Assembly (NCBI GenBank): GCA_958295975.1
Contig: OY282446.1
Location: 845,289-909,288 of the forward strand
DNA: 64,000 nucleotides
From: Tepidiformaceae bacterium
Lineage (GTDB): Bacteria; Chloroflexota; Dehalococcoidia; Tepidiformales; Tepidiformaceae
Direction of reading: 5' to 3'
Positions within the stretch are counted from its first letter, which is position 1; each line of letters begins with the position of its first letter. Under the pieces are notes generated by a model. That model had not been told where the DNA came from, searched no databases, and saw nothing but the letters and a program-made list of their open reading frames with translations. Shown piece after piece: positions 40,938-48,419 of this stretch. Made by a program: the position numbers and the translations under genes.

Positions 40938-41579
40938 ATGGACAGCGTTTTCATCTATTGGGACACCTCGAACATCTTCCACGAGGCGCAGAGGCTCGCG
41001 GAGGAACGCGAGGGCACGCCCGGCGCGCGCTACCTCGTGCGCATCAACTTCGAGGCCATCCTGTCCCTCGCCCACGCCGAGCGCGACGTGCGTCATGCCG
41101 TGGCCGCCGGTTCCGTGCCGCCGGAGATGCGCCAGCTCTGGAACCGCCTGGAAAACAGTGGCGTCGAGGTCAAGCTGTTCGACCGTGGCGGGGCGGAGCG
41201 TGGCGAGCAGGAAGTGCCCGATCAGATTCTTCAGAAGCGGATGCTGGAAGACGCCCTCGACTACAATGGCGATCCGGGTATCGCTGTGCTCCTGACGGGT
41301 GATGGCGCGGGCTACATTGAGGGTGAGGGCTTCCACCGGACGCTGGAGCGGATGCACCGCAAGGGCTGGCGCATCGAAATCCTGTCGTGGGCGCATTCCT
41401 GCAACCGGCGCATGCGTCGCTGGGCCGAGGAGAACGGCGTGTTCGTGGCGCTCGACGACTTCTACGAGGCCGTCACCTTCCGCGAGCCGTCGCGCCCCGG
41501 GCACGAGCTCGCGCCCGCGCGCGATTCCGCGCCGCTCGACCTGTCGCGGCGGAAGATGTCGCGACAGGAGACGGCATAG
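40938..41579 (+). CDS. NYN domain (PIN-like) protein
   Basis: This 213-residue NYN/LabA-like protein has [14 protein letters not shown] at the N-terminus, [12 protein letters not shown] in the middle and [18 protein letters not shown] near the end, the usual three-part acidic pattern of the fold. It lies divergent from coxS and convergent with coxG, with no functional link to them visible. It probably acts on RNA. Confidence 0.85.
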
Positions 41580-42058: not shown

Positions 42059-43003
42059 TCAGACGCCGTTCGCGTTCACGTCCTTCAGGAACTCGTAGGT
42101 GCGGCGCGGCGCGTCCGGGTCCTCGGGCACGGGCAGGATGGCGCCGTTGTAGTCGGTCACGCCGATCTCCGCGAGCCGCTTCAGCTGGGCGCGCACGGAC
42201 GCCTCGTCGCCCACGATGGCCATGTCGGCCACGCCGCTGGCGCCCTCCGCCTCGATCACCTTGCGGTAGGAGTAGATGCGCCCGTAGACCTCCCACACCC
42301 TCGCGCAGGCGGCGCGCGCGGCCTCCTCGTCGGCGGTCACGGAGAGGGGGATGCCGGCGACGATGCGCGGCGCGGGCCGTCCCGCCGCGTCCGCCGCCTT
42401 CGTGATGGCGGGCACGGCGGTGCGCTCGATGTAGTTCGGCCCGCACCAGAACATGCTCGTGCCGTCGGAGAGCTCGCCCGCCACCTTCAACATGCCCGGG
42501 CCGAGGGCCGCGATGAGCACCTGCGGACGCCCGCCGCCGGGCACGTCCAGCTGCGTGAAGGGCGCGTTGTTGAGGTGGACGCGGTACTCCTCGCCGTCGT
42601 GGTTCACCAGCTCGCTGTCGAGCAGGGCGTTGAGCACCTGCAGGTATTCGCGCAGGTGGCGCACGGGCGTGGCCCAGCGCAGCCCCTGCCAGCCTTCCAC
42701 GATGAACTTGTGGCTGAGGCCCAGGCCCAGCGTGAAGCGCCCGCCGCAGGCCATGTTGGTGGTGAGCGCCTGCTGCGCCATGACCATGGGGTGGCGCGGG
42801 TAGGTGGGCACGACGGCGGTGCCCAGCTCGAGCGTGCCGGTGGCCTGTCCGGCCAGCGCGCAGACGGTCATGGCGTCGTGGTTGAGGTGGTTGCCGGTCC
42901 AGCCGGAGGGGAAGCCGTCGGCCTCGAGCTGGCGGAAGGGAGCGACGAGCGCCTCGACGGAAGCGTCGCGCGCGCCCCCCGGCGGCCTGGTGATGATGCG
43001 CAT
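42059..43003 (-). CDS. LLM class (F420/FMN-type) oxidoreductase
   Basis: This 314-residue luciferase-fold enzyme has GFPSGWTGNHLNHDAMTVC, LELGTAVVPTYPRHPMVMAQ and GRFTLGLGLSHKFIVEG, followed by PQVLIAALGPGMLKVAGELSDG. It belongs with the F420-dependent TIGR03564-like group by pattern, but the cofactor is inferred. TAGGAT and AGGAGA precede ATG 43003. It ends 29 bases before coxG on the same strand. Confidence 0.87.
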   Translation of the reverse strand: MRIITRPPGGARDASVEALVAPFRQLEADGFPSGWTGNHLNHDAMTVCALAGQATGTLELGTAVVPTYPRHPMVMAQQALTTNMACGGRFTLGLGLSHKFIVEGWQGLRWATPVRHLREYLQVLNALLDSELVNHDGEEYRVHLNNAPFTQLDVPGGGRPQVLIAALGPGMLKVAGELSDGTSMFWCGPNYIERTAVPAITKAADAAGRPAPRIVAGIPLSVTADEEAARAACARVWEVYGRIYSYRKVIEAEGASGVADMAIVGDEASVRAQLKRLAEIGVTDYNGAILPVPEDPDAPRRTYEFLKDVNANGV

Positions 43004-43113
43004 GTGGGCGGTCTCCTGCTGCGCCCCGTCGGCGGGGCCGCGCGCGCATCCTACGCCCGCCGCGCCCGCAGCGGGAAGGGGGTGGCCGAGTAGACAGGCA
43101 CACCCATCCCTGC

Positions 43114-43119
43114 TAGCCT
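43114..43119 (+). promoter_or_regulatory. Candidate -10 of the ubiquitin-like operon
   Basis: TAGCCT lies 54 bases upstream of the first ATG of the operon. With GAGAGAG just before that ATG, this operon appears to use a leader and ribosome site, unlike most host genes. Confidence 0.35.
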
Positions 43120-43172
43120 CAGTGGGAGTGCTGGGCATCCCGCGAATTTCGCCCAAGCCGTGAGAGAGTGAA

Positions 43173-43409
43173 ATGCCCGAATTCAAGGTCAACGGAAAAG
43201 AGTTCAAGACCGACAACCCCAAGCCTACGGCTACTGAGCTGCTGGAAATTGCCAAAGAAGTGGTCCCGGATGTGAAGGATACGGAGTGGGCGCTCATGGG
43301 CCAGAAAAGGGAGTACAAAAAGAGCGACACTATCGACCTCAGTGAAGACAACCAGTTCACCACCATTCCGACGGGGCCTACTCGCGTTTCGTGGAGGGAA
43401 AATGTCTGA
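43173..43409 (+). CDS. Ubiquitin-like beta-grasp protein (multiubiquitin-type domain)
   Basis: This 78-residue protein is a single beta-grasp domain resembling the bacterial multiubiquitin family (PF14452-like). The pattern is FKVNGKEFKTDNPKPTATEL, a helix TELLEIAKEVVPD, then TEWALMG, a KSDTIDLSEDNQ loop and a FTTIP end strand. The tail after the domain is TGPTRVSWRENV, with no terminal Gly-Gly; Gly68 is the only Gly in it, so trimming by the JAMM enzyme may be needed. The stop overlaps the E2 start by 8 bases. It is the presumed modifier of the conjugation system. Confidence 0.8.
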   Translation: MPEFKVNGKEFKTDNPKPTATELLEIAKEVVPDVKDTEWALMGQKREYKKSDTIDLSEDNQFTTIPTGPTRVSWRENV

Positions 43410-43773
43410 AGATCTCGAGAAGATCCGACAAGAACTTGAAGATCTGGGCTATGTCGTCTCGACTCATCAACATCAGCAAGGGCAGGTGGTCGACTTCGAC
43501 TATCAAGTCAAAACTGGCCCACACGCAGGCGAAACTTATAAAATGGGGATTAGCATGAACAGTCCCGGATATCCGGAGTATCCTCCCCATTGGATCCATG
43601 TGAGTCCGCCGGTTTCTGACGAACATGGTGGGGAAGAGTACTTCACTGATGATGGATGCCAGTGGGTCGCTATGAGTCGCCCACCTGCCGATATATGGGA
43701 TCAACTCCCTGAGAAAAACATGAAACACTACATCGAGATGCATCTCGGAAGATTCTGGATGCACGTCAAATGA
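43402..43773 (+). CDS. E2-like (prokaryotic UBC-fold) conjugating protein
   Basis: This 123-residue protein has the order of a UBC fold: N-terminal helix SEDLEKIRQELEDLG, strands VVDFDYQVKTG and TYKMGISMN, and the proline-rich turn GYPEYPPHWIHVSPP. Next comes a loop with the only cysteine, Cys86 in DDGCQWVAM, where an E2 active site is expected, and a C-terminal helix KNMKHYIEMHLGRFW. It is sandwiched between the UBL and JAMM-E1 genes, overlapping both. It is assigned by fold pattern and context; HHpred or structure prediction would settle it. Confidence 0.75.
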   Translation: MSEDLEKIRQELEDLGYVVSTHQHQQGQVVDFDYQVKTGPHAGETYKMGISMNSPGYPEYPPHWIHVSPPVSDEHGGEEYFTDDGCQWVAMSRPPADIWDQLPEKNMKHYIEMHLGRFWMHVK

Positions 43774-45203
43774 GTTTCAAGATTTCGTTGACCTCGCAGG
43801 CAGAAGAGCAGGCGAGACGACACTTGCTGCAACACTTCAGTAGGGGTGATTATCAGGAGGAATTGTGCTTCGCTCTGTGGCGACCTTCTACTGGGCAAAG
43901 GAATCGTACTGGTTTGATCGACAGGATTATTTTGCCCGAAGCCGAAGAACGTGAGTTGCATGGCAATGCAAGTTTTCAGCCTAGCTATATGGCCCGATCC
44001 ATTGACTTGGCCTGTCAGGAAAAAAGTGGACTCGTGTTCATTCATAGTCATCCGGGAGAAGGGTGGCAAGGTCTTAGTGCCGATGATACAGTGGCGGAAC
44101 GAGATATCTTGGCCTATCCCGCTGGGACAACTGGGCTCCCGCTGGTCGGAATGACCATTGGAAGTGACGGCTACTGGAGTGCTCGTTTCTGGGAAAATCT
44201 GGGTAATGGTATGCATTATTCCCCTTGTGAGAAAATTTGCGTTGTTGGACCCAATAAATTGTCGATCTACTTTGATGATAAGATCTTTCCTCCTCCCGAT
44301 CATGCAGAGACATTGCAGCGTACTTTTGAAACCCTTGGTATCAAAAATCAACAAAATATTACCAGAATGAAAGTTGGTGTTGTTGGTCTTGGTAGTGTTG
44401 GCTCTATTGTTGGAGAGTCTCTGGCACGACTAGGGATCGAACAGATAGTCTTGATTGATAATGATGTTATCAAAAAAGTCAACCTTGATCGGAGTTTGCA
44501 TGCTTCTAAGTCGGATATTGGGAAATTGAAAGTCGAGGTTTCGAAGCGAGAAATTATGCATCACTCGACGGCAAAAAACCTAAAGGTGGATGCAATCCCT
44601 CTGTCTATCGCCAATATTTCTGCATATAAAGCAGCATTGGACTGTGATATTCTCTTTAGCTGTGTTGACAAACCAGTTGCGCGAGACGTGGTGAGTTATA
44701 TCGCTCATGCCCATCTTATCCCTGTTATTGATGGAGGTATTTCGGTTACTATTCACGAAAATCGATTCTATAACGCTCACTGGCGTGTCCACATTGCAGC
44801 TCCAGATGCTCAGTGTTTGCGCTGTAATCTTCAGTACGATACGAGTATGGTCAGTGCTGAATTGGACGGATCTCTGGAAGATCCCCTGTACATCTCCAAT
44901 GTTCCAGAAAATCAATTGGTGGGAAACCAGAATGTCTTTCCTTTCAGCTTGGGAATCGCCGGAATGCAGATTAACCGTATGCTCCAATATATTATGTCTG
45001 AGGAATGGTGGCCAGAACTTCATCAGCAAGACTATATTTTTGCACAAAGTATTTTGAAGACAATCGAAAGTACGTGTCGCTGTGAATTCCGTGCACGTCG
45101 AGCACGAGGAGATCTTGAATTTCCCCCCTATCTTGCACAAGAGATTCTTGTGTCTAAGTGGCAAGCATTTCGGAGAAAAATGTCATCCCTTTGGCCTATC
45201 TGA
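43770..45203 (+). CDS. JAMM deconjugase - E1 activating enzyme fusion
   Basis: This 477-residue protein starts with a JAB/MPN metallopeptidase domain (residues 1-150): a Glu in EELCFALW, then LVFIHSHPGEGW with His92 and His94, and LSADD giving S103 and D106. A ThiF/UBA-type E1 domain follows from residue 200: VGVVGLGSVGSIVGESLARLG nucleotide loop, LIDNDVIKKVNLDRS, GKLKVEV and CDILFSCVDK. Zinc pairs are Cys349/Cys352 and Cys436/Cys438. No cysteine lies between them, where a catalytic Cys normally sits. It should adenylate the UBL and also trim or remove it. Last gene of the operon. Confidence 0.88.
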   Translation: MSFKISLTSQAEEQARRHLLQHFSRGDYQEELCFALWRPSTGQRNRTGLIDRIILPEAEERELHGNASFQPSYMARSIDLACQEKSGLVFIHSHPGEGWQGLSADDTVAERDILAYPAGTTGLPLVGMTIGSDGYWSARFWENLGNGMHYSPCEKICVVGPNKLSIYFDDKIFPPPDHAETLQRTFETLGIKNQQNITRMKVGVVGLGSVGSIVGESLARLGIEQIVLIDNDVIKKVNLDRSLHASKSDIGKLKVEVSKREIMHHSTAKNLKVDAIPLSIANISAYKAALDCDILFSCVDKPVARDVVSYIAHAHLIPVIDGGISVTIHENRFYNAHWRVHIAAPDAQCLRCNLQYDTSMVSAELDGSLEDPLYISNVPENQLVGNQNVFPFSLGIAGMQINRMLQYIMSEEWWPELHQQDYIFAQSILKTIESTCRCEFRARRARGDLEFPPYLAQEILVSKWQAFRRKMSSLWPI

Positions 45204-45206
45204 TAA

Positions 45207-45242
45207 GAGGATACGATGATCGATATTCTCTGAACTTTTTTT
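45207..45242 (+). terminator. Intrinsic terminator of the ubiquitin-like operon
   Basis: A hairpin from GAGGATACGAT to ATATTCTC (45207-45230) begins 4 bases after the E1 stop and is followed by seven T. It is the clearest rho-independent terminator in the window. Confidence 0.65.
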
Positions 45243-45473
45243 CATTTCTGCTCCGTCTGGATGATTACGACAGTTCTTGGATAACACGCTGATGTAGCAA
45301 CGGAGCGCGCCTATGTCGCGCCCTAACGTCGTGCGCACGGCCTCGATCCGCGCCACTGCCACGCCGATGCCGTCGCCGACGGCCGAGCGCGGACGTGGTA
45401 CCAACCCGCGCTCACCGCCCGCGTTCCGGCAGAGCTGCGGTAGGGCGGGCGGCCCGCCCTGCGCCAGCCGCGC
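45243..45473. other. Non-coding gap at right edge of the AT-rich island
   Basis: Composition returns from AT-rich to GC-rich near 45300. I see no gene, tRNA or convincing attachment site here; reading frames across it are short or shadow-like. Confidence 0.4.
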
Positions 45474-45479
45474 TAGACT
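45474..45479 (+). promoter_or_regulatory. -10 element, leaderless promoter of the amidase gene
   Basis: TAGACT ends 6 bases before GTG 45486. Confidence 0.55.
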
Positions 45480-45485
45480 GGCGCG

Positions 45486-46882
45486 GTGACGGACGGCCTC
45501 GACTACGCGCCCGCGCACGAACTGGCGGCGCTGGTGCGCGCCCGCGAGCTCTCGCCCGTGGCGCTCATGGAGCGCTCGCTGGCGCGCATCGCGGCGCTCA
45601 ACCCCGCGCTCAACGCCTTCGTGGCCATCGACGCGGAGGCGGCGCTGCGCGAGGCGCGGGCGCTGGAGACGCGGCTGGCGCGGGGCGAGACGGCGGGGCC
45701 GCTGGCGGGGCTGCCGCTGGGCGTGAAGGACCTGGAGAACGCGGCGGGCTTCGTCACCACGAAGGGGTCGCGGCTGTACCGCGACAACCGCGTCGACTTC
45801 GACGACGCGCGGTGGCGCGGCTGAAGGCGGCGGGCGCGATCGTGGCGGGCAAGACGAACACGCCCGAGTTCGGCCACATCCCCTTCACCGACAACGACCT
45901 CTTCGGGCCGTCGCGCAATCCCTGGAACCGCGAACGCACGCCGGGCGGCTCGAGCGGCGGCTCGTCGGCGGCGCTGGCGGCGGGCATGGTGCCGCTGGCC
46001 ACGGCCACGGACGGGGGCGGCTCCATCCGCATCCCCGCCTGCCATACGGGGCTGTACGGGCTGAAGCCGTCGCAGGGGCGCGTGCCCATCGCGCCGCGGC
46101 CCCTGCCGCCCTGGCTGGCCGTGAGCTGCCACGGCCCCCTCACGCGCTGCGTGCGCGACGCCGCCCTCTACCTCGACGCGACGGCGGGGCCGCACGCGCG
46201 GGATCCGGAATCGCTGCCCCCGCCGGACCGCTCCTTCGCGGAGACGCTGGAGGAGCCGCTGCCGAGGCTTCGCATCGCCTTCAACGAGACGCTGGGCGTG
46301 ACGCGCGTGCGGGGCGACGTGCTGCGCGCGGCGCGCGCGGCGGCGGCGGCCTTCGCGGACATGGGCCACGAGGTGGAGGAGAACGCGGACGCCATCCCCG
46401 AGATGGGCGGCTGGTGGGCGCGCATCTCCGCCTTCCAGACGCTGGGGCTGGAGTGGGACAACTACCTCGCCCGCCGCGACGAATTCACGGAGCGGTACGC
46501 GCGCCAGCTGGACCGCGCGCTCGACGTGGGGCCGGAGGATTTCCGCGAGTTCCTGACGCGGCGCGGCCAGCTGGTGGCGTGGACGGCGCGGCTCTTCGGG
46601 GAGTACGACCTGCTGCTCACGCCCACGCTGCCGACGGACGCCTTTCCGGCGTCGGGCCCCATCCCGAGCGAGGTCGAGGGGGAGCGCGTGAACGGCATCG
46701 CCTTCACCTACCCGTTCAACTTCACGGGGCATCCGGCGGCCTCGGTTCCGGCGGGACTGACGGACGCGGGGCTGCCCTGCGGGCTGCAGATCGTGGGGCC
46801 GCGCCACGGCGACGCGCTGGTGCTGCGCGCCTCCCGCGCGTACGAACGGGCGCGCCCCTTCCCGCCGCTGCCGCGGCTGTGA
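45486..46882 (+). pseudogene. Amidase signature family enzyme, frameshifted
   Basis: This GatA-like amidase of about 465 residues contains the whole Ser-cisSer-Lys apparatus: Lys in GLPLGVKDLENAAGF, then TPGGSSGGSSAALAAG and TATDGGGSIRIPA. The frame from GTG 45486 hits a stop at 45824, while the rest continues one base over. One base is missing near 45805-45812 (DFDD then AVARLKAAGAIVAGK). The remaining frame is intact to 46882. It hydrolyses an amide, substrate unknown; a transamidosome role is unlikely because gatB is far away and no gatC is near. It is frameshifted or mis-sequenced. Confidence 0.82.
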
Positions 46883-47097: not shown

Positions 47098-47325
47098 CTA
47101 CCGCATGGCGAGGTAGTCGTCGCGGGAGAGGTCGATATCGCGCCGGACCTTAGTGATGAAGTTGGGGCCGATGTCACGCGGATGGTTGGGAACGCTCGTG
47201 CCGCGCCCGTCCGGGTGGCGGTAGGCAACATTGCTCCCCTTGCCCCGATCGGGGATCGCCTCAAAGCCCAGCTGGCGGAGGATGCGGTCGAGCTTGCGGA
47301 AGGTGGTGGGCGGGATGCGGCTCAT
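47098..47325 (-). CDS. hicA: HicA-type toxin, copy 1
   Basis: This 75-residue dsRBD-like mRNA interferase has the HicA pattern KLDRILRQLGFEAIPDRGKG and the catalytic His in SVPNHPRDIGP, ending SRDDYLAMR. ATG 47325 lies about 120 bases downstream of its hicB. It is about two-thirds identical by eye to the second copy at 47870. Confidence 0.9.
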   Translation of the reverse strand: MSRIPPTTFRKLDRILRQLGFEAIPDRGKGSNVAYRHPDGRGTSVPNHPRDIGPNFITKVRRDIDLSRDDYLAMR

Positions 47326-47446
47326 GACAGGACACCTCGATGTCAAAAGATTGGAGCGCCGTCTATCTGTATCGGTAGCCTGCGCGATCCTCGGATGGGC
47401 CGCGCTTAGGGTCAAGCCTCGCGGCCTGGGCGAGGATGCGTCCGGC

Positions 47447-47695
47447 TCACACGGTGACCTTGATCTGCTGCAGCCCGACGAAGCACGGGAGCTCGTCCTG
47501 CTCAATCATGCCGTTCTCGGCAAGCAGCTCGATCACCTCGCGCAGGTTCTCGCGGAGTTCGTCGAGGGTCGCGGCCTGGGTGTGCGCGCCGGGGACGCCC
47601 GGCACCGACCCGACGTAGCAACGCACGCACTCGTCCCACTCGACGTAGGCGGTAAGGGTCACTTCCTTGCTGGTGGAACGCTCGGCGACGGTCAT
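47447..47695 (-). CDS. hicB: HicB-type antitoxin, copy 1
   Basis: This 82-residue partial-RNase-H-fold antitoxin has the HicB signature YVEWDECVRCYVGSVPGVPG and HTQAATLDELRENLREVIEL. It lacks an obvious DNA-binding tail, so regulation may rely on the operator-like palindrome upstream. It precedes hicA on the minus strand. Confidence 0.9.
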   Translation of the reverse strand: MTVAERSTSKEVTLTAYVEWDECVRCYVGSVPGVPGAHTQAATLDELRENLREVIELLAENGMIEQDELPCFVGLQQIKVTV

Positions 47696-47855
47696 CGGAG
47701 TCTCCCCCCGCGGGCGGGCCAGCGGCGCGCCTCCTCCGGATATGCCGTGTCCACCTTAAGGGATGGGGTGGCGCAGCGTCACCGTGGGGAACGCGGAGCG
47801 GTATCGGGGCTTGGCGTTGCGGGGGCGCGGGGGGCGGGCCGTACGCTCGCGCGCG
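47675..47855. repeat. hic upstream repeat, copy 1
   Basis: This copy covers the first codons of hicB and its upstream region. It matches 48399-48578 with only a few mismatches and one single-base indel. It includes the palindrome CCTTAAGG (47754-47761), a candidate operator, and a TACGCT -10 pointing right that here has no gene to drive. Confidence 0.88.
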
Positions 47856-47869
47856 GCGGGGGAGGCGTG

Positions 47870-48097
47870 CTAGCGCATGGCGAGATAGTCGTCGCGGGAG
47901 ACGCCGATCTGTTTGAGGATGGAGCGGATGACTTTGGGGTTGATATCGCCTGGATGGTTGGGGATGGTGGTCGTGCGCCCATCGGGATGGCTGTAGAAGA
48001 CATGGCCACCCTTGCCACGACCGGGGATCGGCGCGAATCCCTGCTGGCGGAGGAAGCGGTCCACCTCGCGGAAGCGGGCGGGCGGGATACGGGCCAT
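47870..48097 (-). CDS. hicA: HicA-type toxin, copy 2
   Basis: This 75-residue protein has REVDRFLRQQGFAPIPGRGKG and catalytic TIPNHPGDINP, ending GVSRDDYLAMR, as in copy 1. The start is set at ATG 48097. It follows its own hicB by about 55 bases. Confidence 0.9.
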   Translation of the reverse strand: MARIPPARFREVDRFLRQQGFAPIPGRGKGGHVFYSHPDGRTTTIPNHPGDINPKVIRSILKQIGVSRDDYLAMR

Positions 48098-48152
48098 GAC
48101 AAAGACTCCAGAGAGGCCAGGATTCGCTGGAATCACATGTCAGGCAGGCGGT

Positions 48153-48419
48153 TCACACGGTGATTTCGAGCTGCTGCAGGCCGACGAAACAGGCGAGTTC
48201 GTCGGGCTCGATCTCGCCCGACTCCACGAGCAGCTCGAGCACGTCCCGCAGGTTCTCACGCATTTCGTCGAGCGTCGCGGCCTGGGTATGCGCGCCGGGG
48301 ATGCCGGGCACGCTGCCGAAGTAGAGCCGGCACTCCTCGTCCCACTCGATGTAGGCGGTGACGGTCAGCGTCCTGCGGTCGGGATGTTCGGCGGTGACGG
48401 AACGCTCGGCGACGGTCAT
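48153..48419 (-). CDS. hicB: HicB-type antitoxin, copy 2
   Basis: This 88-residue antitoxin has YIEWDEECRLYFGSVPGIPG and HTQAATLDEMRENLRDVLEL. Its first seven residues are identical to copy 1; the rest has diverged, including a six-residue insertion near residue 10. Confidence 0.9.
   Translation of the reverse strand: MTVAERSVTAEHPDRRTLTVTAYIEWDEECRLYFGSVPGIPGAHTQAATLDEMRENLRDVLELLVESGEIEPDELACFVGLQQLEITV

Follow-up and report, generated by a model that had tools for sequence, protein, structure and literature searches.

The locus and its three genes

The locus lies within a 64,000-nucleotide stretch of DNA from a Tepidiformaceae bacterium, which was analysed as a whole and is called the window here. 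Three plus-strand open reading frames follow each other at 43173-43409, 43402-43773 and 43770-45203, and encode products of 78, 123 and 477 aa. The first two overlap by 8 bp and the last two by 4 bp, so the ORF coordinates bear out the original prediction of three overlapping genes, in both place and length. The features discussed in this work are listed below with the evidence for each.

43063..45477, strand not assigned: low-GC segment, putative horizontally acquired insert (no DNA homology in same-genus genomes)
43173..43409, plus: UBL modifier, BubA-like, single beta-grasp domain, 78 aa (Foldseek, AF2, weak Pfam)
43386..43391, plus: V72-S73 codons, V-[S/A] motif at the C-terminus of the family's modifiers, here as GPTRVS (family C-termini)
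43392..43406, plus: codons of the tail WRENV behind the motif (DNA comparison with loci L009, L010 and L016-L018)
43402..43773, plus: E2-like protein (UBC/UEV fold), BubB-like, 123 aa, without conserved Cys (AF2, Foldseek, profile)
43657..43659, plus: Cys86 codon, the catalytic candidate of the original prediction, not conserved (column counts, alignment)
43675..43677, plus: Ser92 codon, sole invariant residue of the E2-like family (alignment counts)
43770..45203, plus: JAMM-E1 fusion, BubCD-like, 477 aa (BubCD profile match, ThiF)
43770..44204, plus: JAMM peptidase domain, about aa 1-145, with E30, H92, H94, S103 and D106 (conservation)
44316..45041, plus: E1/ThiF adenylation domain, aa 183-424 (ThiF match, conservation)
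45206..45242, plus: weak terminator-like hairpin, then seven T (fold -9.7 kcal/mol, z -0.79)

The Bub proteins of Citrobacter (BubA, BubB and BubCD) are the top PDB matches for all three window proteins. The identification of the 78-aa protein as a beta-grasp UBL holds: its AF2 model (pLDDT 82.3) has BubA (9ea8_B) as the top Foldseek match, with a probability of 1.00. The Pfam Multi_ubiq match is weak (E 0.0016, below Pfam's cut-off), and this Pfam family recognizes 11 of 80 family members. The 123-aa protein is indeed UBC-like. Its AlphaFold2 model reaches a pLDDT of 94.8, with BubB (9eae_C) as the top Foldseek match and Ubc12 and TSG101-UEV among the first ten; the E-values are weak throughout, 0.07 or higher. 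A profile of the family matches Citrobacter BubB at E 5e-5. Of 79 E2-like relatives, 24 match Pfam Prok-E2_E, a family that also includes the Synechocystis type 6e E2-like protein (8.7e-56).

The assignment of the 477-aa protein as a JAMM-E1 fusion stands. Pfam ThiF matches it at 2.6e-32; the Citrobacter BubCD profile match covers positions 6-396, near full length, at E 6e-33, and a single-sequence comparison with BubCD gives E 6e-23. The window protein itself has no match to Pfam Prok-JAB. In the alignment the JAMM residues E30, H92, H94 and D106 are invariant in 38/38 sequences and S103 is conserved in at least 90%; in the E1 domain D232, N238, R241, K254 and D300 are invariant. The picture of a compact, mobile UBL/E2-like/JAMM-E1 operon whose JAMM and adenylation residues are intact is supported. 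Among the cysteines, C298, C349, C352, C436 and C438 are conserved, together with C292 and, to a lesser degree, C33 and C153. The CxxC pair C349/C352, inside the E1 domain, and the CxC pair C436/C438, just downstream of it, look like a zinc site. Beyond these zinc-type residues and C298, inspection of the conserved cysteines revealed no obvious transfer Cys after the adenylation core.

The three genes have a GC content of 0.45-0.53 against 0.71 in the window, and the insert of about 2.4 kb that carries them has 0.495 against 0.708. On the left, same-genus DNA homology stops at 43003 or 43062; it restarts on the right at 45478-45497. Both the JAMM-E1 gene and the triplet are absent from 8/8 other same-genus genomes. 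Given the low GC, the homology breaks and this absence, the insert is most simply read as foreign and as recent at the genus level; this agrees with the horizontal transfer first proposed from composition. No clear mobility repeats or integrase were seen at the insert ends. We give homology breaks and not a clean empty site, since the genes that flank the insert, for a luciferase-like monooxygenase and an amidase, are located apart in relatives. The predicted intrinsic terminator fares less well: the hairpin and its seven T exist, but 41/200 shuffles fold equally well and a pattern scan for terminators found none.

The surroundings contain other features worth recording. The amidase gene beside the insert (45486-46882) is split across two frames near 45.8 kb, while its homologues in the same genus have long open frames, so the window copy is a pseudogene or carries a sequencing error. 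A NYN-domain (PF01936) gene at 40938-41579 lies in a segment from 40835 to about 41580 that is missing from same-genus relatives, a second small insertion about 1.6 kb from the Bub insert. Two HicA/HicB-like toxin-antitoxin pairs stand side by side on the minus strand at 47101-48419.

Distribution of the triplet and its neighbours

Relatives were collected via similarity to the JAMM-E1 protein, so the sample covers that protein's own branch. Searching genome contigs with a profile yielded 80 of them, and plasmid and phylum loci brought the set to 92 other loci; a single-sequence scan of the contigs with the window protein P0003 had returned nothing. All three components occur in the order UBL, E2-like, JAMM-E1 in 90/92 of these loci, the exceptions being L015, with no E2-like match, and L027, at a contig edge. 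The linkage that the original prediction proposed to look for in other genomes is therefore present, and at this frequency chance is excluded. The phyla with the triplet include Actinomycetota, Bacteroidota, Chloroflexota, Acidobacteriota, Pseudomonadota, Planctomycetota, Nitrospirota and Latescibacterota, and one archaeal assembly has it as well. Within a sample of 400 genomes from the window's own phylum, eight had a match, the window's genome among them. No relatives were found in phage records, or in viral contigs by a pattern-based search, the latter being a weak negative.

As to the role of the operon, the neighbours offer some hints. Among 121 clade neighbours there are 14 HTH_3 genes, 11 ImmA/IrrE peptidases and 7 CapP model matches, as raw counts among immediate neighbours; restriction and abortive-infection genes stand beside a clade operon in single loci. 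These HTH, ImmA/IrrE and CapP neighbours resemble the stress-linked regulation described in Bub operons (PMC13373217). No CapH/CapP-type, HTH or ImmA/IrrE regulator lies beside the window operon, and, as predicted, the operon has no separate effector gene. It is probably a mobile system for regulatory modification with a link to stress or phage. An anti-phage role for the window operon itself is what we would infer from its relatives; according to a 2026 paper, phage protection by Bub operons was not demonstrated (PMC13373217).

The modifier, the E2-like protein and a possible mechanism

The ubiquitin-like modifiers studied so far almost all use a C-terminal glycine for their reaction and are transferred via cysteines. 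The modifiers of this clade end differently. Of 92 UBL proteins counted, 76 have V-S or V-A as their exact C-terminal end, and 9 are fused to the E2-like protein, with V[SA] at the junction in 9/9. The remaining 7 deviate; they include a few with short tails, the window's being one of these, and two single clade members, L024 and L077, of which one has PVG and the other PVE in place of PVS or PVA. Two-domain UBL proteins make up 36/92 of those counted, while the window protein has a single domain. In a Latescibacteria genome (L016:4083-4618), two tandem UBL genes, both ending in V-A, stand upstream of a single E2-like gene.

The short tail in the window is one point against the mechanism we favour. 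Where the nearest relatives (L009, L010 and L016-L018) have a stop codon, the window UBL has TGG, and WRENV could be a damaging stop-loss. One may then regard the operon as a degenerate, non-functional copy, a decaying insert with a run-through modifier and no regulator, next to a frameshifted amidase gene. We consider this quite improbable: the three frames are open, the catalytic motifs are intact, and other members also extend behind V[SA], either by tails (L043 and L014) or by fusion, so the window is not the only member with a removable extension.

Another reading would do without protein conjugation. The E1 belongs to the ThiF/MoeB/MccB superfamily, which would suit a sulfur carrier, as in ThiS/MoaD pathways, or the modification of a peptide, as by MccB. 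Such a pathway is very improbable here, as the modifier lacks a C-terminal Gly-Gly, genes for sulfurtransferases or cofactors are absent nearby, the E2-like and JAMM components are conserved, and the nearest structures are those of Bub.

The original prediction had named Cys86 as the catalytic residue of the E2, in effect a classical Cys-thioester cascade. There is a Cys at residue 86 of the window protein; yet among five close orthologues of 48-53% identity the same column is R, P or Q (G-R-E-W, G-R-P-W, G-Q-Q-W and G-R-Q-W), and in farther relatives it holds assorted residues. Moreover, no column of the family alignment, in this region or elsewhere, has a conserved Cys, and by spacing from Gly85 it is, in our reading of the sequence, Trp88 and not Cys86 that would lie near the canonical Cys position. 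The alignment refutes a Cys86 thioester as the family mechanism, and such a cascade is scarcely credible for the window operon; dropping the assignment avoids misdirected mutagenesis. The residue that is conserved is Ser92, invariant in 39/39 and in 79/79 E2-like proteins. It sits in a W-S-R motif that recurs in canonical BubB, including that of Citrobacter.

These results do not support the view that the operon covers the whole chemistry of conjugation: the E2-like protein has no conserved Cys, the E1 no evident catalytic Cys, and the modifier no Gly end. A Ser/Ala-ended tag together with a Cys-less E2-like protein makes an unusual chemistry probable. We think it probable, with a fair amount of room for doubt, that the operon is a Bub-type (type 6e) sister-clade conjugation module working by E1 adenylation, Cys-free transfer and JAMM reversal. 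One point against this module is that the JAMM peptidases found in ubiquitin systems usually cleave behind Gly. In the window, the JAMM domain would first trim WRENV behind Ser73, a cut after Ser/Ala that we infer from the fusion junctions. The E1 domain would then adenylate the C-terminal Ser/Ala carboxylate, and the activated modifier would reach its target by a Cys-free route that involves the E2-like protein and the invariant Ser92, with Ser92 as either an oxyester acceptor or a positioning element. For Bub, an oxyester route has reportedly been proposed. Finally, the JAMM domain may reverse the linkage or split UBL-E2 fusions. We see this as the simplest scheme.

A rival scheme would do without an E2 altogether: the E2-like protein would be a catalytically inactive UEV/RWD adaptor for binding modifier or substrate, and the E1 would transfer directly, as in E1-only systems. 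The type 6e E2-like domain was in fact described as inactive and RWD-like, and proposed to only bind the modifier in the way of eukaryotic UEV/RWD domains (Iyer et al. 2006, PMC1779556); the lack of a conserved Cys in the family and the place of TSG101-UEV among the top fold matches point the same way. Nevertheless, a strictly invariant Ser92 that is common to canonical BubB exceeds the needs of a pure binding surface, and the E2-like gene adjoins or is fused to the modifier in nearly every locus. We regard direct transfer as rather unlikely, and keep Cys-free transfer through the E2-like protein as the preferred reading. The broader proposal, of a widespread branch in which modifiers end in Ser/Ala, the E1 lacks an evident transfer Cys, the Cys-less E2-like protein has an invariant Ser and the JAMM domain cuts after Ser/Ala, is more tentative, and we would not yet lean towards it. 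The Ser/Ala terminus deserves further study, as a Ser/Ala-ended modifier and a Cys-less, invariant-Ser E2-like protein found in many phyla would probe which parts of ubiquitin chemistry are indispensable; the operon offers a minimal 2-kb module for doing this.

Comparison with known systems

The logic of E1, E2-like protein and JAMM is shared with Cap2 and Cap3 of type II CBASS. The likeness ends there: Cap2 is an E1-E2 fusion acting on a CD-NTase, in a system without a UBL gene, while the window operon has neither a CD-NTase gene nor an E1-E2 fusion, and the PADLOC E1-E2 models match its E1 domain only. The Bil operons (BilABCD) likewise have UBL, E1, E2 and JAMM all within one operon. In Bil, however, the E1 and JAMM are separate, the E2 has an active-site Cys138 and BilA is Gly-ended (PMC11354881), whereas the window has a fused JAMM-E1, no separate JAMM, an E2-like protein without catalytic Cys and a modifier that is not Gly-ended.

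The closest relative with known structures is Citrobacter Bub (PDB 9ea4, 9ea5, 9ea8, 9eae, 9eav and 9d59), which has the same UBL, E2-like and JAMM-E1 components, the W-S-R motif, the modifier/E2 boundary as a processing site, and HTH/ImmA-type genes near many members. The fused JAMM-E1 with a free E2 had been taken to set the window operon apart from Bub. This contrast was mistaken, as BubCD is itself a JAMM-E1 on one chain; moreover, the E2 of Bub operons is free in some and fused in others, as among the loci collected here. The fusion was accordingly rejected as a novelty. The true differences lie elsewhere: the BubCD-like proteins share about 25% identity, the window has one UBL domain against several, and the processing point has Gly in canonical Bub but Ser/Ala in the window clade (Ser73 in the window). 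In the PDB constructs, Citrobacter BubA ends in ...TPKDVNNG229 and BubB begins at or beside that point; the constructs thus take Gly229 as the last residue before the split of the native A-B fusion. Of 16 canonical-type loci, 15 have a Gly in or close to the corresponding position, either terminal (TTTEG) or before a tail or fusion; in several of them it was picked by eye, and L128 has no obvious Gly. In a 52-row E1 tree the Ser/Ala clade falls on one side of a branch with support 100/99; here all 16 canonical rows, L128 among them, were labelled Gly, and every window-clade row, exceptions included, Ser/Ala. The window E1 is placed in this sister clade and not inside canonical Bub. In view of these labels and of three long-branched canonical rows, we claim only the unity of the window clade.

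A DUF6527 gene (the Y Zn-finger) is frequent in canonical operons but absent from the window and from all family loci searched but one, where it is on the opposite strand. It is also missing from some canonical-clade loci (L099 and L121), that is, common but not universal, and its absence weakens the claim to canonical Bub and not the claim to type 6e. In two canonical-type Bradyrhizobium loci (L118:3807-5396 and L124:3738-5342), a further gene lies between JAMM-E1 and DUF6527; its product, about 530 aa long, is annotated as a hypothetical protein or phosphotransferase.

Operon type 6e was defined by a polyUbl, a Cys-less inactive E2/RWD-like protein, a JAB-E1 fusion and the Zn-finger protein Y; its mobile distribution and one solo-UBL member were already noted, and for the other UBL families first detected in that study no conserved C-terminal residue was reported (Iyer et al. 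2006, PMC1779556). The window agrees with type 6e in gene content and order and in mobile distribution: a JAMM domain is fused N-terminally to E1/ThiF, the adjacent UBC-fold protein has no catalytic Cys (in type 6e it is adjacent or fused), and the operon has a UBL gene, with one domain where two or three are usual. It differs in having no Y (DUF6527) and in the V-[S/A] motif, which is absent from the description by Iyer et al. We conclude that the locus genuinely belongs to Bub / Iyer type 6e, within a sister clade of canonical Bub that has a distinctive C-terminal V-[S/A].
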